A stretch of 36,602 bases of DNA. It comes from an uncultured Cocleimonas sp. (GTDB taxonomy: Bacteria > Pseudomonadota > Gammaproteobacteria > Thiotrichales > Thiotrichaceae). Positions 1,652 through 29,131 of this stretch are shown here, piece after piece (positions within the stretch are counted from its first letter, which is position 1; each line of letters opens with the position of its first letter). The position numbers and the translations under genes are program-made. The notes under the pieces are model-generated. The model worked only from the letters and a program-made list of their open reading frames with translations. It was not told the origin of the DNA and ran no database searches. The DNA lies in assembly GCA_937929875.1 (NCBI GenBank), contig CALFUP010000057.1, positions 1-36,602 on the forward strand. Direction: 5' to 3'.

Positions 1652-1671
1652 TGACACCCCCCACTTTTTGA
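1652..1671 (+). repeat. Dispersed intergenic repeat, copy 1 (divergent gap)
   Basis: TGACA + C6 + ACTTTTTGA, one base shorter than most copies. It lies in the 206-bp gap between the divergent alkB-like and kpsE-like genes, 38 bases upstream of the alkB-like start. A possible -10 box TATACT for the kps operon is at 1763-1768. Confidence 0.9.
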
Positions 1672-1820
1672 AGCTCTATCAAAATCCAATATTGCGCATT
1701 ATTTAAAACATATTACAAATAGACAAAGCCAATACAAGGTTTTGTAGTTAGAATGGCAGTGGTATACTCATCACACACTATCATAATGTTTACCTTAATA
1801 AGAAACCCAAACACTAAACT

Positions 1821-2924
1821 ATGAAACTTTTTAAATCAGGCATGTTCTGGTTATTCTTCCTAATACCGATGGCGCTAGGAATAACCTACTATTATAAATT
1901 CGCAAGCTACCAATATCAGGCAACAGCACATTTCACCATTGAGAAAAGTGGCAAAGAACAAGCAGACCCATTAGGTGCATTGACTGGTTTGCCAGGTAAC
2001 GTTTCATCAACTCGCGATGCATTAATCATCAAAAACTTCATAGAGTCTCGTGAAGTAATTGAACGTACCCGAGATGATTTTGACTTGAAAAAACTCTATG
2101 CTCGAGAGGACAAAGACTGGCTTTCGCGATTAGAAAAAAATAGCAGCATTGAGGAAATTATTGAATATTGGCGGAGCAAAATAAGTGTAGAATTTGATCT
2201 AGCCTCAGGTATTGTAACTTTGGGTGTTATGGCTTTTGAACCCAATGAAGCAGTTGAAATAATCAACGCAGTACTAAAAGAGAGTGAAGAATTAGTCAAT
2301 AACCTCTCAGAAAAATCACGACAAGATAGCTTAGCTTTTGCCCGGAAGGAACTAAAAAATGCTGAAACTAAATTAAAGAAGGCAAGAACTGATGTCAGGG
2401 AGTTTCGTGAAAAAGAACAATCTCTCAGCCCTGAAAAAAATGCTGAATCTAAAATAACATTGGTCGAAGAACTTGAAGCTGATCGTGCTCGTGCAGAAGC
2501 AGAATTACAAAGTTTAAGATTAGAATTACCTGATAATTCACCTAGAATTCAAATTGCAATTTATAAAGTTGCTGCGCTTAAACAACAAGTATTAAAAGAA
2601 AGAGAAAGAAGCTCTAGAAGCAATGGTTCTAAAGATGCAAAAACAATGAGTTCAATCATTTCAAAATATGAAGAATTGATTACAGAACAAGGCTTTGCTG
2701 AAAAATCGTATGAAGTAGCTCTAATAAATATAGAAACGGCACGTATAGATGCTACTCAACAACAAAGATATTTAACGATGATTGTTTATCCACAACTTCC
2801 TGAGGATCCAATTAAACCTAATCAACCCAATGATTATATCGTCCTGTTTCTTGCCTGTTTATTAATGTGGGGAATCCTTAGTTTAATCTTAGCATCTATA
2901 AGAGATCATGCTGGGTGGCTTTAA
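1821..2924 (+). CDS. kpsE: Capsule polysaccharide export inner-membrane protein, KpsE/BexC/CtrB type
   Basis: A 367-residue Wzz/KpsE-family protein of the polysaccharide co-polymerase class, which bridges the inner-membrane ABC exporter and the outer-membrane channel of group 2-type capsule systems. It has one N-terminal membrane segment (about residues 8-26), a long periplasmic region rich in charged heptads (coiled coil about 160-310) and a C-terminal membrane segment (about 337-357). The family motif PQLPEDPIKPNQP precedes the second membrane segment. It begins the operon kpsE-kpsM-kpsT. No strong Shine-Dalgarno sequence is visible, but the ATG directly precedes the membrane segment, as expected. 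No outer-membrane channel (KpsD/Wza) or kpsC/kpsS gene lies beside it, so the rest of the capsule locus must be elsewhere. Confidence 0.88.
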   Translation: MKLFKSGMFWLFFLIPMALGITYYYKFASYQYQATAHFTIEKSGKEQADPLGALTGLPGNVSSTRDALIIKNFIESREVIERTRDDFDLKKLYAREDKDWLSRLEKNSSIEEIIEYWRSKISVEFDLASGIVTLGVMAFEPNEAVEIINAVLKESEELVNNLSEKSRQDSLAFARKELKNAETKLKKARTDVREFREKEQSLSPEKNAESKITLVEELEADRARAEAELQSLRLELPDNSPRIQIAIYKVAALKQQVLKERERSSRSNGSKDAKTMSSIISKYEELITEQGFAEKSYEVALINIETARIDATQQQRYLTMIVYPQLPEDPIKPNQPNDYIVLFLACLLMWGILSLILASIRDHAGWL

Positions 2925-2970
2925 ATAATGTTAAATATTTTTTAATTGATTATGAATACTGGTAATTAGT

Positions 2971-3750
2971 GTGGAGTTATTCCAAGCATTAAATGTTCAA
3001 GGTAGGGTTATTTCGGCACTTACCCTTCGTGAAACACGGGCTCGTTATGGGAATAGTAAGCTAGGCTTCTTTTGGGCTTTGTTTGAACCTTTTGCACATA
3101 TCACTGTTTTTATAGGTATATTTTCTGCACTAGGCCGTGCTGTTCCTTTGGGAGACAGTATGGGGTTATTCATGCTAACCGGAATAATTCCCTGGTTACT
3201 TTATAGCAATACAGTAAGTAATGTAATGGGTGGACTTAATTCAAATAAATCTCTGCTTGGCTATCCCCAAGTAATGCCCATGGACATAACCATTTCACGT
3301 GTTGTTTTAGAGGCTGCAACATTATTTATTGTTATGCTACTATTTTTAGCAGGCTTCTTTTATCTTGGAGTTAGAATTGAAATTGATAGCTTTCTACAGA
3401 TGTTTAGTGCTTATGCTTTACTTATTTTATTAGCTACAGGTGTTGGCTTAATCAATGCTGCTATCGTTCCAATTTATCCATCTTATCAAAGCATCTATAG
3501 TGCTTTCTCTAGGCCATTATATTTTATTTCAGGAGTGTTCTTTACTGCAGACTTTCTCCAGCCTGAAGTTTTTGCTGCAATTGACTTTAACCCTTTGATT
3601 CATTTAATTGAATGGTTTAGATCTGGGTTTTACCCTAGCTTCCAAAGCCATCTGTATGATCCTGAATATGCAGTTGCAGTCTGCGTAAGTGTTTTTGCAT
3701 TAGGCCTTATAGTGGAGCGTGTCAACAGTAAGAAGGCTAGACAAGTATGA
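2971..3750 (+). CDS. kpsM: Capsule polysaccharide ABC transporter permease, KpsM type
   Basis: A 259-residue ABC-2 type permease that forms the membrane channel for capsular polysaccharide export. About six hydrophobic segments are visible, starting near residue 30 (GFFWALFEPFAHITVFIGIF). The early segment with TLRETRARYGNSKLGFFWALFEP is the characteristic KpsM/Wzm/TagG cytoplasmic lead-in. The start is GTG at 2971; the upstream ATG at 2951 runs into a stop in five codons, so GTG is the only sensible choice. Its TGA overlaps the ATG of kpsT by four bases (ATGA), indicating translational coupling with its ATPase partner. Confidence 0.92.
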   Translation: MELFQALNVQGRVISALTLRETRARYGNSKLGFFWALFEPFAHITVFIGIFSALGRAVPLGDSMGLFMLTGIIPWLLYSNTVSNVMGGLNSNKSLLGYPQVMPMDITISRVVLEAATLFIVMLLFLAGFFYLGVRIEIDSFLQMFSAYALLILLATGVGLINAAIVPIYPSYQSIYSAFSRPLYFISGVFFTADFLQPEVFAAIDFNPLIHLIEWFRSGFYPSFQSHLYDPEYAVAVCVSVFALGLIVERVNSKKARQV

Positions 3751-4403
3751 TAGAGTTTCAGAAAGTCTCGAAATCCTATGCTATTAAGAATGGTAAAAAT
3801 ACTATTTTAGACAATGTTAGCTTTACATTTCCTGAAAAGAAAAATATTGGTGTTTTGGGTGTAAATGGAGCAGGTAAATCAACCTTGTTACGCCTAATTG
3901 CAGGAAGTGAATACGCAGATAGCGGTAAAATCATTCGAAGAGGAAGATATTCATGGCCTCTTGGTTTTTCTGGTTCTTTTCACCCTTCATTATCTGGGAT
4001 CGAAAATTTACGATTTGCCTGTAGAATATATGGTTGTGATATCAAGTACGTTACCGACTATGTTAAGGATTTCTCTGAGTTAGGTAAGTACATTGAAGAA
4101 CCCATAAAGACATATTCCTCAGGTATGCGCTCAAGACTAGCCTTCGCTTTAAGTATGGCAATTGATTTTGAAGTCTACCTCGTTGATGAAATCATGGGTG
4201 TTGGCGACCAAGGTTTTCAAAAAAAATGCCACGATGCATTTGAATCAAAGCGTGAAAAATCTAGTATTATCATGGTTTCACATAGCATGAATACTATTAG
4301 AGATTATAGTGATGTAGCAATATTACTAACTGGTGAAAGCCTAGAAATACACCATGATGTAAATCAAGCAATTGATCTTTACAACGATTTAACTAAAGCC
4401 TAA
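3747..4403 (+). CDS. kpsT: Capsule polysaccharide ABC transporter ATP-binding protein, KpsT type
   Basis: A 218-residue ABC ATPase that energises export through KpsM at the cytoplasmic face. Walker A is GVNGAGKST (residues 38-46), the signature is SSGMRSRLAFALSMA (about 123-137), Walker B is VYLVDEIMGVGD and the switch histidine lies in MVSHS. The short C-terminal end without an extra carbohydrate-binding domain fits KpsT/Wzt-short proteins, as does the family length of about 220. It overlaps kpsM by four bases and ends only 5 bases from the convergent CPBP protease gene, leaving no room for a conventional terminator between them. Confidence 0.94.
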   Translation: MIEFQKVSKSYAIKNGKNTILDNVSFTFPEKKNIGVLGVNGAGKSTLLRLIAGSEYADSGKIIRRGRYSWPLGFSGSFHPSLSGIENLRFACRIYGCDIKYVTDYVKDFSELGKYIEEPIKTYSSGMRSRLAFALSMAIDFEVYLVDEIMGVGDQGFQKKCHDAFESKREKSSIIMVSHSMNTIRDYSDVAILLTGESLEIHHDVNQAIDLYNDLTKA

Positions 4404-4408
4404 ATTAA

Positions 4409-5242
4409 TCAAGGCAACCACTGTTGAGGCAATCCCTTAGTTTGTAACAATGCAGCAATATCCATACTCAATGCAATCGACACATGTACTAAAACACCAC
4501 CCCAAATAGATCGTGTATGCAGTGCTAACACCCCCAAAAAAAGTCCAAAGAAGATTGCACCACTAGCTTCTAACCATGGTTTTGAAAGATGTATCATCAT
4601 GTATGGCACAATCATGATAAAAATAGCATTGACACCGAAGACAGGACGACAAGCTTGTAAAATAAAGCCACGAAAAAAGAACTCGACACAGAAAAATTGG
4701 AATAAATACAAAACTTCCCAAGCAATTAAATCAAGCCAACTTCGATGCGCTAATTTATAAAAGGGATAATGATTCGTGAAATCTTCTCGAAAACTCACGA
4801 TAACGACAAAACATAAAATCGGCGCAACTAATAGAAAATACCATTTTTTATGTTGATTTAATTTACCCAACCCTAAGCCATAATTACTCATTGGCTCTTT
4901 TAGAATCCATTTAATCGTAATAACAGGGATGATAAGAAAAGTAATTAAATGCCAAAAGGCCCACCATGCCTGCGACATTAACGGAAAAAAAGTTTCACGG
5001 CGTAAAGATCTAATTACATTTGCAGCGTTATCAGTGGTTTGGCTAAACCATAAGTCTAAAGCGGCATAAAAAGTGGTATTAAATTTAAAATAGTGCAGCA
5101 TCAATAAACATAAAGCGACAACCATCAAAACAATCGCAGGACGCTTATCCCAAACATAAAGATCTCTTTTAACGTCTTGTGAATCAAACGATTCTGAATG
5201 AATATGTTGTAATAAATCAAGAAATTTACGAAGTACAGTCAT
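4409..5242 (-). CDS. CPBP-family intramembrane protease (CaaX-protease-like)
   Basis: A 277-residue, strongly hydrophobic protein with about seven membrane segments after a charged N-terminal tail of 35 residues. The C-terminal half carries the CPBP (Abi) motifs: glutamate and arginine in VEFFFRGF (about 190), histidine in MMIHLSKP (about 216) and a last histidine in GGVLVHVSIALSMD (about 250). The first motif has a single E before FFFR rather than the usual EE, a small departure. The family includes CaaX prenyl endopeptidases and bacteriocin self-immunity proteins; the substrate here is unknown. The gene is transcribed alone, convergent with kpsT. Confidence 0.8.
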   Translation of the reverse strand: MTVLRKFLDLLQHIHSESFDSQDVKRDLYVWDKRPAIVLMVVALCLLMLHYFKFNTTFYAALDLWFSQTTDNAANVIRSLRRETFFPLMSQAWWAFWHLITFLIIPVITIKWILKEPMSNYGLGLGKLNQHKKWYFLLVAPILCFVVIVSFREDFTNHYPFYKLAHRSWLDLIAWEVLYLFQFFCVEFFFRGFILQACRPVFGVNAIFIMIVPYMMIHLSKPWLEASGAIFFGLFLGVLALHTRSIWGGVLVHVSIALSMDIAALLQTKGLPQQWLP

Positions 5243-5370
5243 TCATATATTGTATCTTATGTCCTCATAATTTACATGAAGGTAAAGCTTGAAAATCTAG
5301 ATGACTATTAAAAGTCATATAATTTAGAGAGACCTGTCACTTTTTAACTACTATAACTATCTAACTTTTT

Positions 5371-5379
5371 TGCTAAAAT
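5371..5379 (+). promoter_or_regulatory. Extended -10 box immediately before the MazG-like start
   Basis: TGCTAAAAT resembles an extended -10 element (TGnTATAAT) and ends only 5 bases before the ATG at 5385. No Shine-Dalgarno sequence is visible. If it is the promoter, the transcript would start at or next to the ATG and be leaderless. Inference from position and sequence only. Confidence 0.35.
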
Positions 5380-5384
5380 AAAAC

Positions 5385-5735
5385 ATGCCTACAGAACTAG
5401 ATAACTTAAAACTCCGTTTACGTGAATTCGCCAAAGAACGTGATTGGGATCAATTTCATTCGCCCAAAAATTTTTCCATGGCAATGATTGTTGAATGCGC
5501 CGAATTGGTTGAACACTTCCAATGGCTAACTGATGATCAAAGTAAAGAGTTGCCCGCCGATACTTTAAAGGAAGTTCGTTTAGAAATGGCTGATATCTTT
5601 TTATATTTAATTCGATTGGCAGATAAATTAGATGTTAATTTAATTGATGCGGCCAACGACAAAATAAAATTAAATGCCCTGAAATACCCCATTGAAAAAT
5701 CAAAAGGGCTCGCCACTAAGTACAATAAACTATAG
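5385..5735 (+). CDS. MazG-like nucleotide pyrophosphohydrolase (dCTPase/iMazG type)
   Basis: A 116-residue all-alpha NTP pyrophosphohydrolase of the MazG superfamily, related to RS21-C6/dCTPase. It hydrolyses (deoxy)nucleoside triphosphates to monophosphates and cleans non-canonical or excess nucleotides from the pool. The metal-binding motif is visible as ECAELVE (about residues 37-43) with a second acidic set in EMADIFLYLIRLADKLD (about 67-83). The C-terminal KYPIEKSKGLATKYNKL is a family hallmark. The length is normal. It stands alone between a divergent protease gene and the convergent gmk. The start lacks a ribosome site and sits directly after a possible -10 element. Confidence 0.88.
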   Translation: MPTELDNLKLRLREFAKERDWDQFHSPKNFSMAMIVECAELVEHFQWLTDDQSKELPADTLKEVRLEMADIFLYLIRLADKLDVNLIDAANDKIKLNALKYPIEKSKGLATKYNKL

Positions 5736-5779
5736 CCTTAAATAAATTTCATTTTTTCGTAAATTATTCAGTCACTCAT

Positions 5780-6397
5780 TCAAGCTGACGTTAATTCATC
5801 CAATAAAGATTGGTTACGCTGACGTTGTTTCTTCAACGTAATTCGATTGGCTTGGAATACGCTTTCTAGCTGGTGCATTGCCTTAGCAAAATCGTCATTT
5901 ATCACAACGTAATCGAACTCATGGTAATGTGCCATATCAGCACAGGATTGAGCTAAACGCTTCTGGATCACTTCATCTGAATCCGTTCCACGACCTCGCA
6001 ATCGGCTTTCCAACTCAGCACGGGAAGGTGGCAAAATAAAGATAGATGAAGCAGCTGGCATTATCTTGCGCACTTGTTGCGCTCCCTGCCAATCTATCTC
6101 CAAAATGACATCGATACCTTTTGAAGTAATATCTTCTACTGCCTTTTTAGATGTACCGTAGTGATTACCAAAAACACTAGCGCTCTCTAAAAAATCACCA
6201 TTTCCAATACCTTCCAAGAACTCTTCTGCACTTATGAAATGATAATGTTTTCCATCAACTTCACCTTCTCGCTTAGCACGAGTAGTATGCGAAACTGCCA
6301 TTTCAGCGTCATCTAAACCTTCTAAAAGTTTGGTGATAAGGCTAGTTTTACCTGCACCCGATGGAGCAGAAATGATATAAAGTGTTCCAGAACTCAT
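5780..6397 (-). CDS. gmk: Guanylate kinase
   Basis: A 205-residue guanylate kinase (GMP + ATP to GDP + ADP), essential in purine nucleotide and (p)ppGpp metabolism. The P-loop is SAPSGAGKTS (residues 9-18). The GMP-binding region SHTTRAKREGEVDGKHYHF follows at about 37-55, and the LID/EIDWQGAQQVR segment near residue 100 is typical. The length matches the family. It is divergent from gloB with only 42 bases between the start codons. The usual gmk-rpoZ-spoT neighbourhood is absent: rpoZ does not follow at 5780. Confidence 0.96.
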   Translation of the reverse strand: MSSGTLYIISAPSGAGKTSLITKLLEGLDDAEMAVSHTTRAKREGEVDGKHYHFISAEEFLEGIGNGDFLESASVFGNHYGTSKKAVEDITSKGIDVILEIDWQGAQQVRKIMPAASSIFILPPSRAELESRLRGRGTDSDEVIQKRLAQSCADMAHYHEFDYVVINDDFAKAMHQLESVFQANRITLKKQRQRNQSLLDELTSA

Positions 6398-6439
6398 AGT
6401 TTTCTCTTAATTCGTATTTTCATTGAGCATTTAATAAAT

Positions 6440-7231: not shown

Positions 7232-7245
7232 ATGGAGGATAAAAA

Positions 7246-7266
7246 TGACACCCCCCCACTTTTTGA
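7246..7266 (+). repeat. Dispersed intergenic repeat, copy 2 (convergent gap)
   Basis: TGACA + C7 + ACTTTTTGA preceded by AAAAA, lying between the convergent 3' ends of gloB and the CDGSH-protein gene. A second block shared with copy 9 follows 16 bases downstream. Confidence 0.92.
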
Positions 7267-7282
7267 ACCTATTTTTAATAAC

Positions 7283-7310
7283 TTAAGGAAGATCTGATTA
7301 CGTCGATATA
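7283..7310 (+). repeat. Secondary shared block next to repeat copy 2
   Basis: TTAAGGAA, two variable bases, TCTGATTA, one variable base, GTCG, then a short AT stretch. The same layout recurs at 27821-27849 beside copy 9, with 20 of 23 aligned core bases identical. It may be the end of a decayed mobile or miniature element. Confidence 0.6.
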
Positions 7311-7402
7311 ATAGAAGCGCAAAAAAAAAGAGTATGTAAGTGTCAAGAAGTAGGTCGTAAAAGTCCTCTTATTACACCGATATTCGGGAAAGTTTCAGAT
7401 GC

Positions 7403-7421
7403 TTTTATTAATCTAATAAAA
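7403..7421. other. AT-only inverted repeat between convergent genes
   Basis: TTTTATTA, a 3-base loop and TAATAAAA form a perfect 8-bp dyad 19 bases beyond the stop of the CDGSH-protein gene. It could act as a weak bidirectional terminator, but the stem has no G-C pairs. Confidence 0.3.
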
Positions 7422-7439
7422 TATTGGACCAGAATTTCC

Positions 7440-7865
7440 TTAAGTATCAAACTCAATACTCTGGTGACTACCGTCACAATAAGGCTTATTTGCAGATGCG
7501 CCGCAGCGGCATAACGCAGTCATTCCGGATTTCTCTTCTACTGTTCCATCAGATAATTCAATTGTTAAAGAGCCTTTGATTAATAATGGACCACCTTTGC
7601 TAACAATAACCTTAGTCGAACCAGTTATCGTTTCTTCAATCTCTTTAATCACGTCACCTTCGATAGATAATGCCCCTGACGGACATTGCTTAACCTGCTC
7701 AATAATATCTTCAGACGTTTTATGATCCAACTGTACCCAAGGTCTATTCTCAGGATTAAACACTTCAGGCAAACCAGCAAAACATTTTTTAGAATGAGTG
7801 CACATAGTGGGCTGCCAAACAATAGTAAGATCATCTTTGCTATAACGTTTAATTACTTCTTTCAT
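7440..7865 (-). CDS. Iron-sulfur protein: divergent Fer4_19 domain plus CDGSH domain
   Basis: A 141-residue two-domain iron-sulfur protein. Residues 1-70 match the divergent single-cluster 4Fe-4S domain (Fer4_19 style), with cysteines in MCTHSKKCFAGLPEVF and CPSGAL. Residues 85-141 hold a CDGSH-type 2Fe-2S site: CRCGASANKPYCDGSH supplies three Cys and one His. The fusion is known in bacteria, but its physiological role is not settled; redox sensing or electron transfer is the usual guess. An AGGAT ribosome site lies 6 bases before the ATG. The gene follows pqiC by 26 bases on the same strand and may be the last member of that operon. No membrane segment or signal peptide is present, so it is cytoplasmic. 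Confidence 0.88.
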   Translation of the reverse strand: MKEVIKRYSKDDLTIVWQPTMCTHSKKCFAGLPEVFNPENRPWVQLDHKTSEDIIEQVKQCPSGALSIEGDVIKEIEETITGSTKVIVSKGGPLLIKGSLTIELSDGTVEEKSGMTALCRCGASANKPYCDGSHQSIEFDT

Positions 7866-7891
7866 TATAATATCCTATTGCTGAAGTTTTT

Positions 7892-8536: not shown

Positions 8537-10414
8537 CTATTTACCAAAAATCACTGAATTCGGTTTACGCTGAATTGTATCGGCTAATACCGAAAATGAT
8601 TTTGATGCTTCGCTTAAATCATTAATTAATAACTGCAAACGATACTGTAAGCCCGAGTCTTCACCCAGTGTGGCATTTAAACCTTTATCCATCGTGTTAC
8701 TCGCTTTACTGACACTGTTAAGAGTAACCGATACATCTTTTTGTAATTTATTAGCAACATTATTAAAGGTTCGCATGCTTTGATTGGCATCTTTTTGTAA
8801 TTTATTAGCAACATTGCTGAAGCTTTTCATGGTATTACTGGCATCTTTTTGCAACAAATTGGTAGCGTTTCCAATTTTCCCTATTGCTGAGCGACTGTCC
8901 AAAATTAACTGACTGATATCCTTAGTGGCTTTTTTTGCATTATTAAGCATTGCAAGGAGCTCACCAGAAAAACCTTCTTGATCAAGCTGTTGACTGATAC
9001 GACCGAGACTATCAGTAGTAGTCGCCAATCCGCTAAGCATTTGCTTAATATCATTAGAGCTTACTAATGCGGTAACACTGGCAAGCGTTTTGTTAAGCTC
9101 TCGAGATACTTCAGTTGCATCAAAGTTCAACAACCCAGTTTTTGCAATCGTAGTAGGGAATCGAGGCACATTATCGTCAGTACTAGCTAGCAGCTCGAAT
9201 TTTGGTTCACTACTTTTGTTTATTTCATCTGTACTCGCTGGCATATTCAAAGCAATAAATTGAGCACCGGTAATTAAACTATCGACAGTTAATTGTGCAG
9301 CTAAACCATCGGCAACAAGACCTCGAAGTAGTTCCTCGGCTTCTTTTGCATCTTCATCCCGTGAAAATTTATCAATATTAAGAGACACTTTTACTCTGGC
9401 TTTGATATGACTACCATCGTCAGTCTTCACCAATCGAATACCTTCAACTTTACCGACTTTAACGCCACTAAATTCTATAACCGAACCCCGACTTAATCCG
9501 TGCAGCGAATCATCAAAATACATTTCATAAAATAACTTATTATCTTTTTGGGTATTATCTTGAGCAACTTTATAAGACTCGAAAAGCCTAAAGGCACGCT
9601 CTCCATCTATCTCTTTACTAATTCTAGACTTCGGTGTCTCAAACGCTATACCTCCAATTATTAACGATGTTAAGGACTCCATACGTGCAGATACACCAGC
9701 AGAATTTACCTCTACTTCAACTCCACTAGCATTCCAAAAGCGCGTATTGCTTTTTACTTTCGCGTCATAGGGCTCATGAATATAGATGAAAACATCAATG
9801 TTATCTGTTGTCGGGCTTAAGCGATAACTCGTGACTTCACCCACGTTAATTTTATTGAAATAAACGGGTGAGCCTACATCAAGCGAACCTAGACTATTGG
9901 TTCTTAGCGTTATTCTCGTACCTTCTTTTTTACTGGTGATGTAAGGCGGTGAGGGTAAACCATTATAAGTTTCTAACGGTTCGCTTCTTACACCCGGGTC
10001 AATTCCTATATGAACACCTGAAAGCAAGGTATCGAGACCACTCACACCCTGAAATGAAATACGTGGTTTTACTACCCAAAACCGAGTGTTACTTCCCAGG
10101 ATTTTAGCCATGCTTGGGAAAATTTCAGCAGTTACTCTCACTTTGTTTAAATCATCCGTCAAATCTAAAGTTTTAACTTTACCGACAACTACATTTTTAT
10201 AGCGAATAGGTGTTTTCTTCTCTTCTATTCCAGCCGCTTCGTCAAAAGTAATATCAATCATGGTGCCGCGTTCAGAATAGTATTTAAACAGTAACCAACT
10301 GCCAATTAATATTGCTGTAAGTGGAATTATCCAGATAAGCGAGAAACGCGCTTTCGGCCTTACCTGAGCAGTAGGCAATTGGTTTGCTACTTTGCTGGAC
10401 TCTGCTTGTGTCAT
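8537..10414 (-). CDS. pqiB: PqiB-like MCE-domain lipid transport protein
   Basis: A 625-residue inner-membrane-anchored protein with three MCE domains, which in PqiB build a hollow periplasmic needle carrying lipids between the membranes. A single membrane anchor spans about residues 24-44. MCE units start near residues 50 (MIDITFDEAAGIEEKKTPIR), 167 and 294 (FYEMYFDDSLHGLSRGSVIEF). A long C-terminal helical part (about 430-610) forms the tip coiled coil. That tail contains a tandem 18-residue repeat at 521-574. The length exceeds E. coli PqiB (about 546), mainly in this tail. The start ATG overlaps the pqiA stop by one base (TAATG), showing tight coupling. Confidence 0.93.
   Translation of the reverse strand: MTQAESSKVANQLPTAQVRPKARFSLIWIIPLTAILIGSWLLFKYYSERGTMIDITFDEAAGIEEKKTPIRYKNVVVGKVKTLDLTDDLNKVRVTAEIFPSMAKILGSNTRFWVVKPRISFQGVSGLDTLLSGVHIGIDPGVRSEPLETYNGLPSPPYITSKKEGTRITLRTNSLGSLDVGSPVYFNKINVGEVTSYRLSPTTDNIDVFIYIHEPYDAKVKSNTRFWNASGVEVEVNSAGVSARMESLTSLIIGGIAFETPKSRISKEIDGERAFRLFESYKVAQDNTQKDNKLFYEMYFDDSLHGLSRGSVIEFSGVKVGKVEGIRLVKTDDGSHIKARVKVSLNIDKFSRDEDAKEAEELLRGLVADGLAAQLTVDSLITGAQFIALNMPASTDEINKSSEPKFELLASTDDNVPRFPTTIAKTGLLNFDATEVSRELNKTLASVTALVSSNDIKQMLSGLATTTDSLGRISQQLDQEGFSGELLAMLNNAKKATKDISQLILDSRSAIGKIGNATNLLQKDASNTMKSFSNVANKLQKDANQSMRTFNNVANKLQKDVSVTLNSVSKASNTMDKGLNATLGEDSGLQYRLQLLINDLSEASKSFSVLADTIQRKPNSVIFGK
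8693..8854 (-). repeat. In-frame 54-bp tandem repeat inside pqiB
   Basis: Three 18-residue units occupy residues 521-538, 539-556 and 557-574. Each begins LQKD, and the first two end in NVANK. Units 1 and 2 are closely similar also at the DNA level; unit 3 is more diverged. The repeat length of five helical turns suits extension of the C-terminal coiled coil. Confidence 0.85.
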
Positions 10415-11886: not shown

Positions 11887-11939
11887 ATGCGCAATTTTGA
11901 CAGAAATTAACCTTTAAATCCTCTTAAATGAGTTTAAAA

Positions 11940-11960
11940 GCACACCCCCCCACTTTTTGA
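11940..11960 (+). repeat. Dispersed intergenic repeat, copy 3 (co-directional minus gap)
   Basis: GCACA + C7 + ACTTTTTGA preceded by AAAA; the first two bases differ from the TGACA consensus. It lies upstream of the pqi group and downstream of the next minus-strand gene. Confidence 0.88.
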
Positions 11961-12050
11961 CAGTATCTCAACGTGATCTCACAGAGATTCGACGTTTAAT
12001 TGCTGAAATTGTTCAATTTGGATTAATCATAAATTCAAAACAAAGTCGCT

Positions 12051-13150: not shown

Positions 13151-13235
13151 TCTAGAAGGTTATTGATGGATTTTCGCAATAAAGTATTGGAAAAAGGTTA
13201 AGTCAGTGTGCTGATTCACTCGAACACATAGAAAA

Positions 13236-13256
13236 TGACACCCCCCTACTTTTTGA
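13236..13256 (+). repeat. Dispersed intergenic repeat, copy 4 (divergent gap)
   Basis: TGACA + C6 + T + ACTTTTTGA preceded by GAAAA, in the divergent gap between rluE and the DUF2333 gene. A T-rich stretch (13260-13267) follows. Confidence 0.92.
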
Positions 13257-13273
13257 TGGTTTTTTTTCGATTA

Positions 13274-14805: not shown

Positions 14806-14835
14806 GTATTCAGAATGGGTTTATTTAGTTAAAAA

Positions 14836-14856
14836 TGACACCCCCCACCTTTTTGA
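14836..14856 (+). repeat. Dispersed intergenic repeat, copy 5
   Basis: TGACA + C6 + ACC + TTTTTGA preceded by AAAAA, the same internal variant as copy 10. It is in the 380-bp gap between the DUF2333 gene and ilvD, which also holds the small ORF, the hairpin and the CRP-like site. Confidence 0.92.
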
Positions 14857-14938
14857 CCCTTTTCAATCTACAAGCTATTCCAAAGGGTTTAATTCAGCGC
14901 TACACTAAGCGTATACAATTAATTTAGGAATTAGTCTC

Positions 14939-17449: not shown

Positions 17450-17484
17450 ACATAATGCAGTATTATCATTCGTTGTATTAAAAA

Positions 17485-17501
17485 TGCCCCCCACTTTTTA
17501 A
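17485..17501 (+). repeat. Dispersed intergenic repeat, copy 6 (degenerate, convergent gap)
   Basis: TG + C6 + ACTTTTTAA: the ACA after TG is missing and the final GA is AA. An AAAA lead-in is retained. It lies between the convergent SUKH gene and the dadA-like pseudogene. Confidence 0.75.
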
Positions 17502-17541
17502 ACGTTTTTTTTGATTATTTAACTAGATCGAGTCTAAAAAA

Positions 17542-19226: not shown

Positions 19227-19322
19227 AATAATTGCACCATAATTCACAAATAACCAATTGATTATCGCTAGATTAACAACAATCGAATTAGAATATTAAA
19301 GAGGAATTATAGGTCATTAAAA

Positions 19323-19343
19323 TGACACCCCCCTACTTTTTGA
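19323..19343 (+). repeat. Dispersed intergenic repeat, copy 7 (co-directional minus gap)
   Basis: TGACA + C6 + T + ACTTTTTGA preceded by AAAA, the same variant as copies 4 and 9. It lies between the OCD-family gene and the cupin gene. Confidence 0.92.
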
Positions 19344-19406
19344 TGACATTTGAAGGTAAATGATATTTGCGGGTAAGTAGCTAAGGTTCGAGCTGTTGAG
19401 GATTTA

Positions 19407-22255: not shown

Positions 22256-22321
22256 GGAAAAAATCTAGTTTGAATTAAAACGAGTAAGATAACCGTAGAC
22301 GCACTTTGGGTAAAGCCCTAT

Positions 22322-22338
22322 TAGCACTTTTAGTGCTA
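22322..22338. promoter_or_regulatory. TAGCACT-TTT-AGTGCTA palindrome upstream of the rhodanese gene
   Basis: A perfect 7-bp dyad with a 3-base centre between arsR and the rhodanese gene. Its AGTGCTAT half-sequence recurs next to the arsR promoter at 22806-22813. It may be an operator for the ArsR-type regulator or simply a transcript hairpin; no T run follows on the minus strand. Confidence 0.4.
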
Positions 22339-22396
22339 TTTAAATCACTCGAATCGCAAGAAATTAACGATGAAGTTGAAGTATTTTTCATGTAAA

Positions 22397-22762: not shown

Positions 22763-22804
22763 TAAGTCTTAGTTATCTTGGGTTGCACTCACTTTTTTGC
22801 TCGT

Positions 22805-22829
22805 AAGTGCTATACGCTTCAACATTATA
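22805..22829 (-). promoter_or_regulatory. arsR promoter -10 box with overlapping operator candidate
   Basis: Minus-strand TATAAT (22829-22824) is followed by AAGCG-TATAG-CACTT (22819-22805), an imperfect dyad around the expected transcription start. It shares ATAGCACT with the palindrome at 22322-22338. No good -35 box is seen. The divergent gap to the likely envC start (22763-23066) holds no other recognisable feature. Confidence 0.4.
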
Positions 22830-23066
22830 ATGCAGTTTGACTTTTTATATCTGCAAAAGAGACATAATCCTGATGGCTTGTCTCTTTAATCAAGATTTCA
22901 TGATTTTAGATTAATACGGAATCAAAAAGTCATATTTTCATAAATATTCGCATGATTGAGATGTTATTATATAAATCGGGCTATAACGAATAAAAGTAAA
23001 CAAATGATTTCACAACATCTAAGACTCTCGATAATGGGCAGCAGAGCAAATACAACAATCCAAACT

Positions 23067-24371: not shown

Positions 24372-24481
24372 GTTCATTAGAAACCAAGACCAAAGCAATT
24401 ATGATTAGTAATTCTGAATAACATTTATATTGCTTTTACGTTACTATCGAGTGACTTTTTAAAAAGGGAATTAGAAAGAGT

Positions 24482-25858
24482 ATGTCTAATAGAAGATCCA
24501 TCTTTTCAGGTGTTTTAGCTGGTGTGGTATTAGGTTTAATCGCCACAGTTAGTTTAGATGTCTTTGCTCTTAAGCCAAACAAAAGCACTCTGCCACTATC
24601 CCAACTAAAAAAATTCTCTGAAGTTTATGCGCGTATCAAAAACGATTACGTGGAAACGGTGGATGATAAAAAATTGATGACTGATGCCATTAGCGGCATG
24701 TTAAAAGGTCTAGACCCACACTCAGATTACCTAGATGAAGATAGCTTTAAACAACTTCGTGAAGGAACCTCGGGCGAATTTGGAGGTTTGGGTATTGAAG
24801 TCAGCCAAGAAAATGGCTTTATCAAAGTGATTGCTCCGATAGACGATACGCCCGCAAAAAAGTCGGGAGTTAAATCGGGTGATTTAATTATTCGCTTAGA
24901 TGACAAATCCGTAAAAGATATGAGTTTAAGTGACGCTGTAAAAATGATGCGTGGCAAACCCGGTGAGCCAATTGAATTAGTGATTACACGTGATGGCAGA
25001 ACGGCCCCCCTTAAAATAAAAATTATAAGAGCAATAATAAAAGTAAAAAGCGTTAAACAGCGCATGTTAGAAAAAGACTATGCTTATTTACGCATCTCTA
25101 GTTTTCAGAGTAAAACCAGTGCCAGCACTCGTGAAGCTATCGCAACACTCAAGAAAGAAAATAAATCAACCATTAAAGGCTTGGTATTAGATCTGCGCGA
25201 TAATCCTGGTGGCGTTTTAACAGGAGCTGTTGAAGTATCAGATGTATTTCTAACTAGTGGCAATATCGTTTATACCGAAGGTCGAGTGGAAGACGCCGTA
25301 ATGAGTTATGACGCCACACCAGATGATTTACTGGAAGGTGCACCATTAGTGGTATTGGTTAACCAAGGATCTGCATCAGCCTCTGAAATTGTGGCAGGCG
25401 CATTGCAAGATCACAAACGTGCACTTGTTCTGGGTGTGAAAACATTTGGTAAAGGCTCTGTTCAAACGGTTTTGCCCTTAGATGAAACTACGGGCCTTAA
25501 ACTAACCACGGCGAGATATTTCACGCCGTCAGGTCGCTCCATTCAAGCCAAAGGCATAGAGCCTGACATTATCGTTGAAGATCTACAATTTAAGTCCAAA
25601 GGTGAATCTAAGGATGATATTGCTGCACTATCAGAAGCTGACTTGAGTGGACACTTGAGTAATCCGAATGGAGAAAGTAAGAAAGAGAGTAAAAACAAAG
25701 GTAATGTTGAGCCAGATAAATCAGATGATAGTGCTTCAATAGATAAAATAGGCTCAAGTAAAAAGAGCTTAGCTGAAGAAGATTATCAACTTTACGAAGC
25801 ACTCAATATTCTCAAAAGCATGAACTTGGTTCGACTGATGAATCTGAAGAAAGGCTGA
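24482..25858 (+). CDS. ctpA: C-terminal processing peptidase (S41 family)
   Basis: A 458-residue carboxyl-terminal processing protease of the periplasm, with an N-terminal signal or anchor segment (about residues 8-29). The PDZ domain covers about 100-180 (GGLGIEVSQENGFIKV...) and the S41 core about 195-380. The catalytic serine is S299 in GSASASE and the lysine is K324 in TFGKGSVQ, at the canonical 25-residue spacing. A hydrophilic, Ser/Lys/Asp-rich linker (about 385-430) precedes a short C-terminal helix. These enzymes degrade tail-exposed substrates and regulate peptidoglycan hydrolases. In many Gammaproteobacteria the gene follows envC, as here, 110 bases apart. The stop codon lies inside the terminator stem. 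Confidence 0.94.
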   Translation: MSNRRSIFSGVLAGVVLGLIATVSLDVFALKPNKSTLPLSQLKKFSEVYARIKNDYVETVDDKKLMTDAISGMLKGLDPHSDYLDEDSFKQLREGTSGEFGGLGIEVSQENGFIKVIAPIDDTPAKKSGVKSGDLIIRLDDKSVKDMSLSDAVKMMRGKPGEPIELVITRDGRTAPLKIKIIRAIIKVKSVKQRMLEKDYAYLRISSFQSKTSASTREAIATLKKENKSTIKGLVLDLRDNPGGVLTGAVEVSDVFLTSGNIVYTEGRVEDAVMSYDATPDDLLEGAPLVVLVNQGSASASEIVAGALQDHKRALVLGVKTFGKGSVQTVLPLDETTGLKLTTARYFTPSGRSIQAKGIEPDIIVEDLQFKSKGESKDDIAALSEADLSGHLSNPNGESKKESKNKGNVEPDKSDDSASIDKIGSSKKSLAEEDYQLYEALNILKSMNLVRLMNLKKG

Positions 25859-25875
25859 TTATTACAGCCTTTTTA
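25850..25875 (+). terminator. Intrinsic terminator of ctpA
   Basis: AAAGGCTG, 7-base loop, CAGCCTTT followed by a T run (T70-T74 of the block). The perfect 8-bp stem overlaps the ctpA stop codon. This is the clearest rho-independent terminator in the window. Confidence 0.85.
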
Positions 25876-25884
25876 AGCTATAAA

Positions 25885-25905
25885 TGACACCCCCCCACTT
25901 TTTGA
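25885..25905 (+). repeat. Dispersed intergenic repeat, copy 8 (co-directional plus gap)
   Basis: TGACA + C7 + ACTTTTTGA, preceded by TAAA, 10 bases after the ctpA terminator and upstream of the argS promoter. The following AACGTTTTT also follows copy 6. Confidence 0.93.
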
Positions 25906-25949
25906 ACGTTTTTATTACTATTTAAAACGCAATTCAGTCTAAACATCGG

Positions 25950-25977
25950 TTAACACCACTCTATTTTACGGTAGAAT
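25950..25977 (+). promoter_or_regulatory. argS promoter, possibly leaderless
   Basis: TTAACA and TAGAAT are separated by 16 bases, a good sigma-70 match. The -10 box ends 8 bases before the argS ATG and there is no Shine-Dalgarno sequence, so the transcript would start within about 2 bases of the ATG. Confidence 0.55.
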
Positions 25978-25985
25978 CTCCGCCC

Positions 25986-27722
25986 ATGAATATACGCACT
26001 CAACTAGATACAATTATCACTCAAGCTTTAGCAAATGTTGGCGCTAATGAAGCTCCAGCTGTTGTTAAAACATCTGCCCGACCTGAATTTGGCGACTATC
26101 AAGCCAACGGTATTATGGGTGCGGCTAAAAAGCTGAAAATGAATCCTCGCGAGCTCGCCACTAAAGTTGTCGCTGAGTTAGAAAATAATAGCGAAATTAG
26201 CCTTCTTGTTGAGAAATATGAAATTGCTGGCCCAGGCTTCATTAATATTCATCTGAAGAACAACTGGTTAGCAGATCAGGTAGAGCAAACCCTCAATAGC
26301 GATAATCTAGCTGTCAAGAAATCAAGCACACCTGAAACGGTTGTAATCGATTATTCAGCCCCCAATCTTGCCAAAGAAATGCATGTAGGTCATTTGCGTT
26401 CAACTATTATTGGCGATGCTATCTCAAGAGTTTTAGAGTTCTTAGGGCACAAGGTTATTCGCCAAAACCATGTAGGTGATTGGGGAACTCAGTTTGGCAT
26501 GTTGCTCACTTATATGGGTGAGTTAAAGAAAGAAAACGCTGAACTAGAGATGCAACTATCCGATCTAGAAAAGTTCTATCAAGCTGCAAAAATTCGTTTT
26601 GATGAAGATGAGGCTTTTGCCACACAAGCGCGTGAAAACGTAGTTAAACTGCAAGCGGGAGATGCTGAATTCCTAAAGCTTTGGCAACAGTTTATTGATA
26701 CGTCATTGAATCACTGTGATGAAATTTATCAAATACTCAACGTCAAACTAAAACGCGAAGATGTTGCGCCTGAAAGCCAATATAACGACGACCTTGCCAG
26801 TGTCATTACTGACTTAGACAAAGCAGGATTACTCAGTGAAGACCAAGGTGCGCAATGCGTATTTTTAGATGAATTTAAAGGCAAGGACGATTCGATCATT
26901 CCGATGATTGTACAAAAGTCCGATGGTGGTTATTTATATGCAACGACCGATCTTGCTGCACTTCGCTATCGTCATAATCAATTAGGTATGACACGTGGCT
27001 TATATTTAGTTGATGCACGTCAAAGCTTGCATCTCAAACAAGTCTACGTCGTTGGCAAAAAAGCGGGATTTTTACCTGAAACAACCAGCCTAGAGCATAT
27101 GGCTTTTGGCACCATGATGGGTAAAGACGGCACGCCATTTAAGACTCGTACTGGAGGCACGGTGAAATTGATTGATTTACTCAATGAAGCCAAACTACGC
27201 GCCTTTGATTTAGTCACATCGAAAAACCCTGATCTTGATGAAGCAAGCCGCAGAGAAATCGCAAACACCGTAGGAATCGGTGCTGTTAAATACGCTGACT
27301 TAAGCAAAAACCGTACGTCAGATTATATTTTCAACTGGGATACCATGCTAAGTTTTGAAGGTAATACTGCGCCCTACTTGCAATACGCTTATGCCAGAAT
27401 ACAAAGTATTTTCAGAAAAGCAGGCGAGATAAACAGCGGCGCAGAAATAGTATTACAAGAACCGGCAGAGCGCTTGCTAGCAACCAAATTACTACAATTC
27501 TCTGAAGCAGTAGATGTTGTTGCCAAAGATGGTACGCCTAACTTCTTATGTAATTATTTGTTTGAATTATCAGGCAACTTCATGAGTTTTTATGAAGCCT
27601 GCCCGATTATGAAAGCAGATGAAGCAACTAAACAGAGCCGATTAAAATTGGCGCAACTCACAGCAAACACCTTGAAGACGGGATTAGATTTATTGGGAAT
27701 TGACGTAATGGAAAGGATGTAG
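25986..27722 (+). CDS. argS: Arginyl-tRNA synthetase
   Basis: A 578-residue class I aminoacyl-tRNA synthetase that charges tRNA-Arg. The additional N-terminal domain specific to ArgRS covers about residues 1-110. The HIGH signature reads HVGH (133-136) inside SAPNLAKEMHVGHLRSTIIGD. The KMSKS loop is replaced by the ArgRS-type GKDGTPFKTRTGG (about 380-392), and the anticodon-binding DALR domain forms the C-terminus ending in GIDVMERM. The length is standard. It appears to be monocistronic; the ATG lacks a ribosome site and follows the -10 box very closely. Confidence 0.97.
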   Translation: MNIRTQLDTIITQALANVGANEAPAVVKTSARPEFGDYQANGIMGAAKKLKMNPRELATKVVAELENNSEISLLVEKYEIAGPGFINIHLKNNWLADQVEQTLNSDNLAVKKSSTPETVVIDYSAPNLAKEMHVGHLRSTIIGDAISRVLEFLGHKVIRQNHVGDWGTQFGMLLTYMGELKKENAELEMQLSDLEKFYQAAKIRFDEDEAFATQARENVVKLQAGDAEFLKLWQQFIDTSLNHCDEIYQILNVKLKREDVAPESQYNDDLASVITDLDKAGLLSEDQGAQCVFLDEFKGKDDSIIPMIVQKSDGGYLYATTDLAALRYRHNQLGMTRGLYLVDARQSLHLKQVYVVGKKAGFLPETTSLEHMAFGTMMGKDGTPFKTRTGGTVKLIDLLNEAKLRAFDLVTSKNPDLDEASRREIANTVGIGAVKYADLSKNRTSDYIFNWDTMLSFEGNTAPYLQYAYARIQSIFRKAGEINSGAEIVLQEPAERLLATKLLQFSEAVDVVAKDGTPNFLCNYLFELSGNFMSFYEACPIMKADEATKQSRLKLAQLTANTLKTGLDLLGIDVMERM

Positions 27723-27791
27723 AAGGGCATTTTGATTAATAGAATGACAGTTCTGTTGATCACTTCTACGAAGCTTCGTCGGAGTATGAAA

Positions 27792-27812
27792 ACACACCCC
27801 CCTACTTTTTGA
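27792..27812 (+). repeat. Dispersed intergenic repeat, copy 9 (convergent gap)
   Basis: ACACA + C6 + T + ACTTTTTGA; the first two bases deviate from TGACA. It lies between argS and the convergent isochorismatase-family gene. A palindrome ACGAAGCTTCGT is at 27768-27779, just before it. Confidence 0.88.
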
Positions 27813-27820
27813 CCATTTAG

Positions 27821-27849
27821 TTAAGGAACCTCTGATTAAGTCGCTTATA
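27821..27849 (+). repeat. Secondary shared block next to repeat copy 9
   Basis: TTAAGGAA-CC-TCTGATTA-A-GTCG and a short AT stretch, 8 bases after copy 9. It matches the block at 7283-7310 beside copy 2. No other copy of the main repeat has it. Confidence 0.6.
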
Positions 27850-27888
27850 TTTAAACTCAGAATAAAACATAGTACTTAGAAAATTATT

Positions 27889-28428
27889 CTAAACAGAGAA
27901 ATCTAGCTCTGTGCTTTCTACGGTTGTTACGACAGGCCCAAAGCTTGTTATATTAGTTAGCATCACATTATGATGAGCAATTACCTGCTGTGGTGATAAT
28001 GCGCTATTTCCCGCAGATGTATGTGCATCGGAAACCAATGTAACTGGAAAACCCAGTGACAGTGCTTTTCGAATAGTCGTATCAACACAGAACTCAGTGT
28101 GCATTCCACAAACGACTATTTCTGTAACATTATGTTGCTTCAGAATCTCTAATAAATCAGTACGTAAAAAAGAATCAGGTGTTGTTTTTCGCACATACAA
28201 ATCATTGGGTTCAGCGTCAAGCCCATTAGCTAATTGCCAAGCCTCAGTTTGGTATTCAAGATATCCAGGTTCAGATTCGTGCTGGATAAAAATCACTGCT
28301 ACCCCAGATTCACGTGCCTTGAGTGTTACTGAGTTGATTCTTCCAATTGTTCCAGAACAATCATAGGCTTCACCTGCCCCCTCACATAAACCTTGTTGAA
28401 CATCGATAATTAATACTGCTGTTGTCAT
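27889..28428 (-). CDS. Isochorismatase-family cysteine hydrolase
   Basis: A 179-residue cysteine hydrolase of the isochorismatase/nicotinamidase superfamily. The catalytic triad is visible as D9 (LIIDVQ), K81 (VRKTTPDSF) and C114 (MHTEFCVDTTIR). The cis-peptide region before the nucleophile, VVCGMHTEFCV, is typical. Members hydrolyse isochorismate, nicotinamide, carbamoyl compounds or similar small amides; the sequence does not settle which. The short length without a carrier-protein domain argues against siderophore-type EntB, and no siderophore genes are nearby. It is convergent with argS and has a repeat copy on each side. Confidence 0.9.
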   Translation of the reverse strand: MTTAVLIIDVQQGLCEGAGEAYDCSGTIGRINSVTLKARESGVAVIFIQHESEPGYLEYQTEAWQLANGLDAEPNDLYVRKTTPDSFLRTDLLEILKQHNVTEIVVCGMHTEFCVDTTIRKALSLGFPVTLVSDAHTSAGNSALSPQQVIAHHNVMLTNITSFGPVVTTVESTELDFSV

Positions 28429-28488
28429 TTATTTTACCTTTTGGGTTTTAATTACAATCATGATGTAAAACTAAATCAATATGGAAAA

Positions 28489-28509
28489 TGACACCCCCCA
28501 CCTTTTTGA
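28489..28509 (+). repeat. Dispersed intergenic repeat, copy 10 (co-directional minus gap)
   Basis: TGACA + C6 + ACC + TTTTTGA preceded by GAAAA, identical in its core to copy 5. It is between the isochorismatase-family and GNAT genes. Confidence 0.92.
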
Positions 28510-28581
28510 TAATTTAATCGTAGCCAGTAACGCTTTATCTAGTAACTTCCAATTCATTGAAATCAATGAATATTAAGTTCC

Positions 28582-29049
28582 TTATAAGAACAATTTAAAC
28601 CCTTCATGAGACGCTTCAAATCCCAACGACTCATAAAATCTTATGGCTTCAGTGCGGGTTTTATTAGAAGTAAGTTGCACAATATTACAGTGCTTTTGTT
28701 TCGCCCGTTGAATGGCCCATTTAAATAAATCAGTACCTAATCCTTTGCCACGATGGTCTGGATGAATTCGCACGCCTTCAATTAAACAACGCCATGAACC
28801 TTTATAGGTAAGATAAGGAATATAAGTTAGTTGCAGAATTCCGACTATCGATGCCTTTTCTACATTATCTGAGTCCAAAACAATCAGTTCATTATTTTTA
28901 TCTGCATCGATTACCTCGAAAGCATCGAGATAGTTTTGGTTGATGGGTATAGAGGGATCTTCTCGGCTATTACCCAACTGATCATCGACTAACATTTGGA
29001 TGATTTGCGGTAGATCTTCTTTAGTTGCTTGGCGATAATTGAGTTGCAT
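28582..29049 (-). CDS. GNAT-family N-acetyltransferase
   Basis: A 155-residue acetyltransferase of the GNAT superfamily. Motif A is EGVRIHPDHRGKGLGTDLFKWAI (about residues 93-115), with the acetyl-CoA pyrophosphate loop RGKGLG. Motif B, AIRFYESLGFEASHEGFKLFL, ends the protein. The start is at 29049, preceded by GGCAAGAG. The frame stays open to 29124, but that extension is translated from spacer and from dispersed repeat copy 11 and is not part of the gene. The substrate is unknown; the domain resembles small-molecule acetyltransferases. The gene lies downstream of tamB on the same strand, separated by the repeat. Confidence 0.9.
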   Translation of the reverse strand: MQLNYRQATKEDLPQIIQMLVDDQLGNSREDPSIPINQNYLDAFEVIDADKNNELIVLDSDNVEKASIVGILQLTYIPYLTYKGSWRCLIEGVRIHPDHRGKGLGTDLFKWAIQRAKQKHCNIVQLTSNKTRTEAIRFYESLGFEASHEGFKLFL

Positions 29050-29110
29050 AGTCTCTTGCCTTTTTAATAAGTACTTTATTCGATAATTTCTAGAATAACA
29101 TCCTGAAAAA

Positions 29111-29131
29111 GTACACCCCCCCACTTTTTGA
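29111..29131 (+). repeat. Dispersed intergenic repeat, copy 11 (co-directional minus gap)
   Basis: GTACA + C7 + ACTTTTTGA preceded by AAAAA; the first two bases differ from TGACA. It lies between the tamB stop and the GNAT start, 62 bases upstream of the GNAT ATG. Confidence 0.88.

Follow-up and report, generated by a model that had tools for sequence, protein, structure and literature searches.

The stretch of DNA analysed here, which we call the window, is a contig of 36,602 nucleotides (C57; CALFUP010000057.1 of assembly GCA_937929875.1) from an uncultured Cocleimonas sp. The arginyl-tRNA synthetase encoded in the window shares 82% identity with its counterpart in uncultured Cocleimonas sp. 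isolate 4-1410. The window belongs to a genome of 3.25 Mb in 328 contigs that is 87% complete (G000), and this genome was compared with the other genomes of its genus set (G001 to G011; 12 genomes in all), contigs being given below as C numbers and loci as L numbers. With genes delimited by a home-made dicodon caller, the gaps between the genes of the window were found to hold eleven copies of a short motif built around a run of six C residues, all on the same strand, as follows.

1648..1684, plus strand: motif copy 1, in the gap between an alkB-like gene on the minus strand and a kpsE-like gene on the plus strand
7242..7279, plus strand: motif copy 2, directly 3' of the stop of a gloB-like gene
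11936..11973, plus strand: motif copy 3, GCACA variant, flanking genes both on the minus strand
13232..13269, plus strand: motif copy 4, in the gap between an rluE-like gene on the minus strand and a DUF2333-like gene on the plus strand
14832..14869, plus strand: motif copy 5, ACCTTTTT variant, upstream of ilvD
17480..17517, plus strand: motif copy 6, degenerate (TGCCCCCCACTTTTT)
19319..19356, plus strand: motif copy 7, flanking genes both on the minus strand
25881..25918, plus strand: motif copy 8, in the ctp-argS gap
27788..27825, plus strand: motif copy 9, ACACA variant, with other repeats on both sides
28485..28522, plus strand: motif copy 10, ACCTTTTT variant
29107..29144, plus strand: motif copy 11, GTACA variant

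An initial annotation of the window had reported these eleven copies, and all of them are present, ten fitting a regular pattern and the one at 17485 being degenerate. It had also stated that every copy reads along the plus strand with no comparable copy on the minus strand, that all lie between genes, and that their flanking genes are divergent in two cases, convergent in three, both plus in two and both minus in four, and these statements were borne out by our gene calls (11 of 11 plus and 11 of 11 intergenic, the copy at 29111 overlapping only an over-long GTG start in the list of open reading frames). A search of the window allowing three edits returned 12 plus-strand matches, namely the eleven copies and a weak one at 34703 inside a dacB-like gene, and a sole minus-strand match at 24871 that is unlike the motif; the literal 20-mer with up to three mismatches recovered three of the 11 copies and gave no match in 100 shuffles. 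However, the description of the motif needed some amendment. The TGACA said to precede the C-run is present in seven copies, but GCACA, ACACA and GTACA replace it once each and the copy at 17485 is degenerate, and a second T-tract about 10 bp past the first is also part of the motif. Other repeats adjoin some of the copies: one of about 165 bp (7279-7444) abuts copy 2 and also occurs on C132, C82, C320, C46 and C157 of G000 and in G004 and G010, and two other dispersed repeats, pieces of both of which are found in congeners, flank copy 9 (27743-27866), one of about 70 bp that reaches up to the motif and a downstream one that contains GGAACCTCTGATTAAGTCG.

Position counts and individual copies give a framework of about 32 bp (A-tract, C6, T-tract, second T-tract), which in full consists of an A-tract, two variable bases, ACACCCCCC or CACCCCCC, YAC, a T-tract, 5-7 variable bases and the second T-tract, with a tract spacing of about 9-10 bp as counted on motif sequences. 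On the leading strand it reads approximately 5'-AAAA-N6-AAAAGTRGGGGGGTG-N2-TTT-3', the G-run and the A/T tracts lying about one helical turn apart, and its most polar form in G003 is AAAGTAGGGGGGTGAC in the same reading. The spelling follows the species, being mostly TGACACC in G000, AGACACC in G004, GTACACC in G007, GTCACC in G003 (plus GC, GG and TA variants), GTCACC again in the few copies read in G008, ACCCATCCCCC in G002 and G010, and in G011 mostly GCCACCCCCCCTC. In G000 and G004, several copies have a repeat like GAGCTTGTCGAA adjoining their A-tract side, as if the two were joined at a fixed point (L019, L020, L043, L047 and others), and the G002 loci L049, L194 and L222 contain many short CTCTGTCCTCTGTC-like repeats, some of them directly before the motif dialect. 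Close inverted pairs of the motif, head to head or tail to tail, were also seen (L001, L026, L191 and L212; C12:8942/8994 of G004; C125 of G007), and they are frequent among the G011 copies examined.

The G000-dialect pattern ACACCCCCC-N(0-2)-ACTTTT occurs 614 times in G000 (reversed control 0), 661 times in G004, 291 in G009, 248 in G007, 104 in G008 and 25 in G003, twice in G011, once in G010 and not at all in the other four genus genomes. Outside the genus, 80 of 83 genomes have no match and the remaining three have 5, 2 and 1, the controls giving single matches in two of the 83. The G003-dialect pattern, with one mismatch allowed, matches 797 times in G003 (controls 1 and 1). Narrow patterns with a GA suffix picked up the motif in four genus genomes only, and broader ones in nine: the framework C6-N(0-4)-T4-N(5-7)-T4 gives 84 to 1501 raw matches, in which overlapping matches are included more than once, in nine of the 12 genus genomes (controls 0-3), and at most 10 in each of 51 other genomes of the family, where controls reach 4. 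Viral contigs held no exact match to one strict G000-dialect pattern, Rfam gave none at the gathering threshold in the window, and a literature search that had most subscription papers outside its reach showed no description of the element among the papers listed.

In a sample of 479 kb of G000 (11 hit-bearing contigs, the window included, and the 20 consecutive contigs C131-C150, some partial), 102 of 114 copies are intergenic, 10 are genic and two lie at contig edges, 86% of the bases being genic. Elsewhere, genic copies amount to 1 of 41 in G004, 14 of 46 in G007 (29 intergenic, three at contig edges) and 58 of 227 in G003 (169 outside genes). The intergenic copies of G000 are enriched in convergent gaps (43 of 102, against 18% of intergenic bases) and depleted in divergent ones (10 of 102, against 23%). 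The convergent enrichment, as well as the potential of some G003 and G004 copies to form a C-run/G-run hairpin followed by T, would suit an intrinsic or bidirectional transcription terminator. However, copies beside codirectional genes are oriented at random in G000 (25 same, 24 opposite), where only one codirectional copy is of the hairpin type, and the hairpin-type copies of G003 are 6 same versus 12 opposite. A terminator function is contradicted by this lack of agreement with the upstream gene, and we consider it very improbable.

Polarity was examined in G000, G003, G004, G007, G008 and G009, and G003, with its large contigs, is the decisive genome. The strict string GTCACCCCCCTACTTT occurs there 138 times forward and 10 times reverse (control 0), a count that includes the sampled stretches that suggested the GT subtype, copies after GT being the most polar in those samples (47:4). 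The places of 100 of the 148 were listed, with all 10 reverse ones among them. On C1, which carries dnaA (C1:968678-970054), the listed copies are 16 forward and one reverse to the left of dnaA, and six reverse and one forward to its right, the forward one belonging to an inverted pair; C2 has three reverse copies up to 110,682, followed by 51 forward copies from 121,433, with no exception. Since all 10 reverse copies are thereby accounted for, the remaining 70 (22 listed on C3 and 48 unlisted) are forward.

This led to the prediction, made before the stretch was inspected, that dif would lie at 110.7-121.4 kb of C2, and a candidate, AGTGCGTATAATCTATATTATGTTAAAT, was then found there at C2:116878 (L330:8878). 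It differs by three mismatches from what we take to be the E. coli dif and by one from what we take to be that of Xanthomonas, and elsewhere in 810 kb of G003 nothing comes closer to the E. coli site than eight mismatches. In its vicinity copies lie on the minus strand at 110,695, 111,699 and 116,334 and on the plus strand at 120,117, 121,435 and 121,815, with a degenerate minus copy at 122,465 as a wrong-side exception. When C1 is split at dnaA (22/24) and C2 at dif (54/54), 76 of the 78 strict strings on these contigs are on the leading strand, and the looser copies are 164 leading versus 62 lagging. The strict string is also denser on the dif contig (54 in 1.28 Mb) than on the dnaA contig (24 in 1.34 Mb; p = 0.0004, G003 only), and in 696 kb of G003 leading strand the eight top-scoring polar octamers with at least 40 occurrences are all pieces of the motif, such as AGTAGGGG (103:20). 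On C1:815975-1020000 the strict string changes strand between 816 and 825 kb, GC skew being weak in the stretches sampled at 810-1040 kb (-0.04 to 0.00), and the origin of G003 may lie up to about 150 kb away from dnaA.

The arrangement is repeated in G008, although no independent origin is shown by this given that the two genomes are related. The strict string counts 144:186 over the arbitrarily oriented contigs of G008, and among the 100 of 330 places listed, C2 has 30 plus and C5 has 15 minus without exceptions, C3 has two plus and 11 minus, and C4 has three minus and then 15 plus around dif (18 of 18 consistent). The dif candidate, in the first 40 kb of C4 at C4:21976 (L332:1976), is two mismatches away from the G003 site; before it lie seven minus copies and one plus copy within an inverted pair at 5.3 kb, and after it a minus copy that is degenerate (27.6 kb), then a plus copy (37.8 kb) and further plus copies. 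Both candidates are likely to be the chromosomal dif sites, and in G003 and G008 the G-rich strand of the motif points to dif from both sides. The window is itself colinear with C4 of G003, which has no reverse strict copy, and with the reverse strand of C3 of G008, a contig whose strict copies are reverse in 11 of 13 cases, so that its one-strand pattern is common to three species.

Within G000 the single orientation noted for the window is regional only, since copies are carried on both strands of the genome (strict copies 104/131 and looser copies 270/344 over arbitrarily oriented contigs). Neighbouring copies agree in orientation 57:27, window included, and because of this regional concordance the 1 in 1000 odds that the initial annotation had attached to eleven agreeing copies overstate the surprise. 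Orientation in G000 follows local GC skew, with 35:7 at negative and 12:29 at positive skew beyond 0.02 (p = 7e-7) and 84:29 once the pattern and the threshold are relaxed (113 of the 136 copies entering the count); as controls, single intergenic C residues show 52% agreement and CCCC runs 40 of 64. Split by GC skew with the looser pattern, G004 gives 29:11 and G008 gives 11:0 on two contigs. FtsK-orienting polar sequences (KOPS) were set aside as a local direction marker: in G000, which has only 9 such sites, motif pairs of the same direction number 28 versus 18, and in G007 36 versus 26. A replication-polar motif, one of the explanations put forward initially, is supported in G003 by the change of orientation on the dnaA contig and at dif, in G008 by that at dif, and in G000 by GC skew only.

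The polarity depends on spelling. In 149 unpaired exact-pattern copies from the C1 and C2 stretches of G003 (excluding 800-970 kb), those with CCCCCCTACTTT split 56:2 and the remaining ones 58:33. Sorted by preceding dinucleotide, the sampled copies of G003 give 27:15 after GC, 15:3 after GA and 8:2 after CA. These subtype comparisons were many and made after looking, with uncorrected p-values. The dependence is different in G000, where copies with Y = C are 40:9 and those with Y = T 37:18. A polarity of this kind could also be a by-product of strand-biased mutation, if a non-polar C-run repeat survived better on the C-rich strand. The intergenic C/G strand ratio of G003 is 1.155, and its seventh power predicts 73%, which equals the overall value; CCC runs outside the motif are likewise 307:219. 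However, CCCC runs outside the motif are 36:35, the 56:2 of the CCCCCCTACTTT copies departs from 73% with p = 4.5e-6 (uncorrected for the choice of subclass), and the same string, chosen beforehand for G008, gives uniform contigs. Wrong-way copies also more often carry C at a consensus T, which we infer a leading-strand C-to-T change would not yield, and the dependence on spelling as such speaks against a mutational account. Pure mutation explains the bulk 73% in G003 but neither the 56:2 nor the uniform G008 contigs, and as the source of the polarity we think it improbable.

In 12 species pairs, we compared the adjacent gene pairs common to the stretches sampled. Between G000 and G003 there are 40 non-tight gaps, 32 without a copy, four with a copy in both and four with a copy in G000 only (p = 0.0008 for sharing), and the four shared copies, out of eight motif gaps, all have the same orientation. 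G008 and G003 share three of three, all in the same orientation; G000 shares two with G008 (one more in G008 only), one of one with G004, and two with G009 (one single-copy and in the same orientation, one multi-copy, with one more in G000 only), and the G004/G009 and G009/G003 pairs had no copy to compare. Shared same-orientation sites were seen among G000, G003, G004, G008 and G009 and not with G007, which shares none of two with G000, none of two with G003 and none of three with G008. In the ctp-argS and gloB-fer4 gaps, the place and the orientation of the site are kept and it is spelled per species: the former (copy 8) holds same-strand copies in G009, G008 and G003, the gap of copy 2 holds one in G003 and G008, and the gloB ortholog of G004 also has a copy after it. 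In G009 (C188, L257) the ctp-argS gap extends over about 1.9 kb, versus 127 bp in the window, with the motif still beside argS. Conservation of the motif above its flanks is not uniform in the three G008/G003 gaps, where the motif is 78-89% and the flanks are 45-98% identical. Apart from the motif, the window contains a 54-bp tandem duplication within a pqiB-like gene (8734-8841), whose copies are 81% identical.

These shared sites bear on whether the motif is a mobile or amplified short repeat that is inserted strand-specifically at replication forks, via the lagging-strand template, in the manner of insertion sequences of the IS200/IS605 type or of REP-associated tyrosine transposases (RAYT). 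The motif is polar, mostly intergenic and often beside other repeats, and its number ranges from 0 to 1501 raw matches within one genus. The gaps that lack a copy are shorter in all four of the G000-only cases against G003, and the G009 ortholog of the copy 11 gap, also without a copy, measures 64 bp versus 156 bp. The G-strand of the motif moreover has the GTRG that we take to be a hallmark of repetitive extragenic palindromic (REP) elements. However, the Y1 transposase domain is absent in G000, G003, G004, G007 and G009, several assemblies being incomplete, which weakens the single-stranded DNA transposase proposed initially, and it is present in the other four motif-rich and in all three motif-poor genus genomes. 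Since five of the nine motif-rich genomes lack the domain, an origin from RAYT was set aside. Neither an autonomous parent nor a target duplication was noticed, though no systematic search for them was made. Finally, the orthologous one-orientation sites (3/3 for G008/G003, 4/4 for G000/G003) differ in spelling, unlike a fresh insertion. Fresh fork-biased insertion does not account for orthologous sites that are shared with changed spelling, and we find the mobile-repeat account rather unlikely.

An uptake signal had been suggested as well, and it fits the copy number, the dialects and the T-tracts but predicts no polarity. Under this explanation the motif would be a DNA uptake sequence (DUS) or uptake signal sequence (USS) preferred by a pilus-borne receptor, whose copies would accumulate by biased uptake and whose spelling would shift by clade. 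The T-tract spacing of the motif presumably resembles that of the H. influenzae USS. Copy numbers from the hundreds into the thousands, dialects that differ by clade about a common core, and inverted pairs, which are also present here, are traits of USS/DUS in the part of PMC12616744 available, as are AT-rich segments flanking the core in that of PMC7811141, and a ComEC domain is found in 11 of the 12 genus genomes. However, the account predicts neither the dif switches nor the 138:10 polarity, and the core is unlike Hin-USS and Apl-USS as given in the accessible portion of PMC12616744. ComEC was dropped as a discriminator, as its 11 genomes include the three motif-poor ones, and none was detected in G004, which is motif-rich and 89% complete. 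The sites are also oriented at random to the genes and so do not act like terminators. The uptake account leaves unexplained the dif switches, which a protein-read polar site covers, and we hold it to be unlikely.

Among the known systems compared, two are strand-biased sequences. Architecture imparting sequences (AIMS) are, in the available part of PMC5993296, strand-biased octamers found in the architecture of nearly all bacterial genomes, with functions mostly unknown. As AIMS do by the criteria in that part of PMC5993296, the motif favours the leading strand and is directed at the terminus in G003 and G008, though G007 shows no such bias (20:18 for its main dialect). A rise of abundance and of strand bias toward the terminus also belongs to these criteria, and here the results are mixed or not significant: in G003 the strict string is denser on the dif contig but looser copies are about equally dense, and the strand bias goes from 22/24 to 54/54 (p = 0.09), while in G008 it is 14:6 on the dnaA contig and 18 of 18 on the dif contig. 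The top strand-biased octamers of G003 are pieces of it, though AIMS are defined as octamers and the motif is a longer unit, a discrete element of more than 30 bp with species dialects that lies mostly outside genes. KOPS are G-rich leading-strand strings converging on dif, according to the portion of PMC5357621 at hand, and the orientation of the motif likewise converges on dif in G003 and G008, with one degenerate wrong-side copy in each. Unlike KOPS, however, the motif is longer, has A/T tracts and does not contain GGGNAGGG in its consensus, and canonical GGGNAGGG sites coexist with it in G003. The traits of REP elements and of bacterial interspersed mosaic elements (BIME) used for comparison are in part general background. 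As with REP/BIME and RAYT in the accessible part of PMC2817692, the motif is mostly intergenic, of high copy number, biased to the 3' side and sometimes in inverted pairs. In contrast to them, single copies are no palindromes and there are dialects at shared orthologous sites. The Beggiatoaceae and Cocleimonas are, we assume, related at order level. The TAACTGA repeats of marine Beggiatoaceae are also an abundant intergenic repeat of gammaproteobacterial sulfur bacteria, but they differ in sequence, in being arranged as direct repeats and in their suggested post-transcriptional action, as far as the available part of PMC4679880 goes.

We therefore read the motif as a replication-polar recognition site of the AIMS/KOPS kind that marks the origin-to-terminus direction, and that is long, mostly intergenic and dialect-bearing. 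The genus has the copy number, the framework, the dialects and some shared orthologous sites, and polarity with dif switches is present in two related genomes; from these we infer a protein reader, selection on orientation, co-evolution and the same function in G000. Several results weigh against this reading. The framework is rare or absent in three of the 12 genus genomes (15 matches in G001, 7 in G005 and 0 in G006). In G003, the strict string was selected once samples had revealed the high polarity of its subtype, copies after GG (18:13) and TA (17:13) and inverted pairs (15:15) show little or none, the dif contig is no richer in looser copies (108 in 20 C1 stretches and 105 in 17 C2 stretches), the rise of strand bias toward the terminus from 22/24 to 54/54 has p = 0.09, and the canonical KOPS GGGNAGGG is itself fully polar (16:0), so that an orienting code is already present. 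Among the places listed in G008, the dnaA contig C1 is mixed (14 plus, 6 minus) and C6 is 2:2. Polarity is weaker in G000, where GC skew is the sole measure, where C-bias alone would give about 64% by our own arithmetic and where the excess of the motif over CCCC runs is borderline (p = 0.07). It is undetectable in G007 (30:20 overall, 20:18 in the main dialect), and G009 is 6:6. As for the shared sites, G004 and G003 share none of three, and no same-orientation site was found with G007, the two of four that it shares with G004 being opposite. Finally, the reader protein is hypothetical and the case is made from sequence alone. Because of the hypothetical reader, the weak or undetectable polarity of G007 and G009 and the mixed dnaA contig of G008, we give this reading about an even chance. 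A nucleoid-protein site, also named initially, is compatible with the data and overlaps with it.

If the motif is a replication-polar site, its polarity would most likely be read by a DNA-binding protein of chromosome maintenance (putatively a translocase, or a replication or recombination factor), as FtsK reads KOPS. Near-consensus copies would be held in the dif-pointing orientation and drifting copies would lose their polarity, while the spelling would change in concert within a species as site and reader co-evolve. The motif would stay mainly between genes, probably since a site of more than 30 bp seldom fits coding sequence. More tentatively, it could constitute a second chromosome-orientation code beside KOPS, long, mostly intergenic and protein-read, converging on dif, evolving by dialect and serving segregation, replication or repair. 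In a bolder form, uptake and polarity could be one system, in which the site would fix which strand enters the cell and hence which replication strand it reaches.

Here the octamers with the strongest polarity in one genome belong to a single discrete element that can be counted, and its unit, its dialects and its orthologous sites are open to direct reading. What it is that reads the polarity of the chromosome thereby becomes a testable question, as the element could be used as bait, and the dialects would predict which residues of the reader should co-vary with them.

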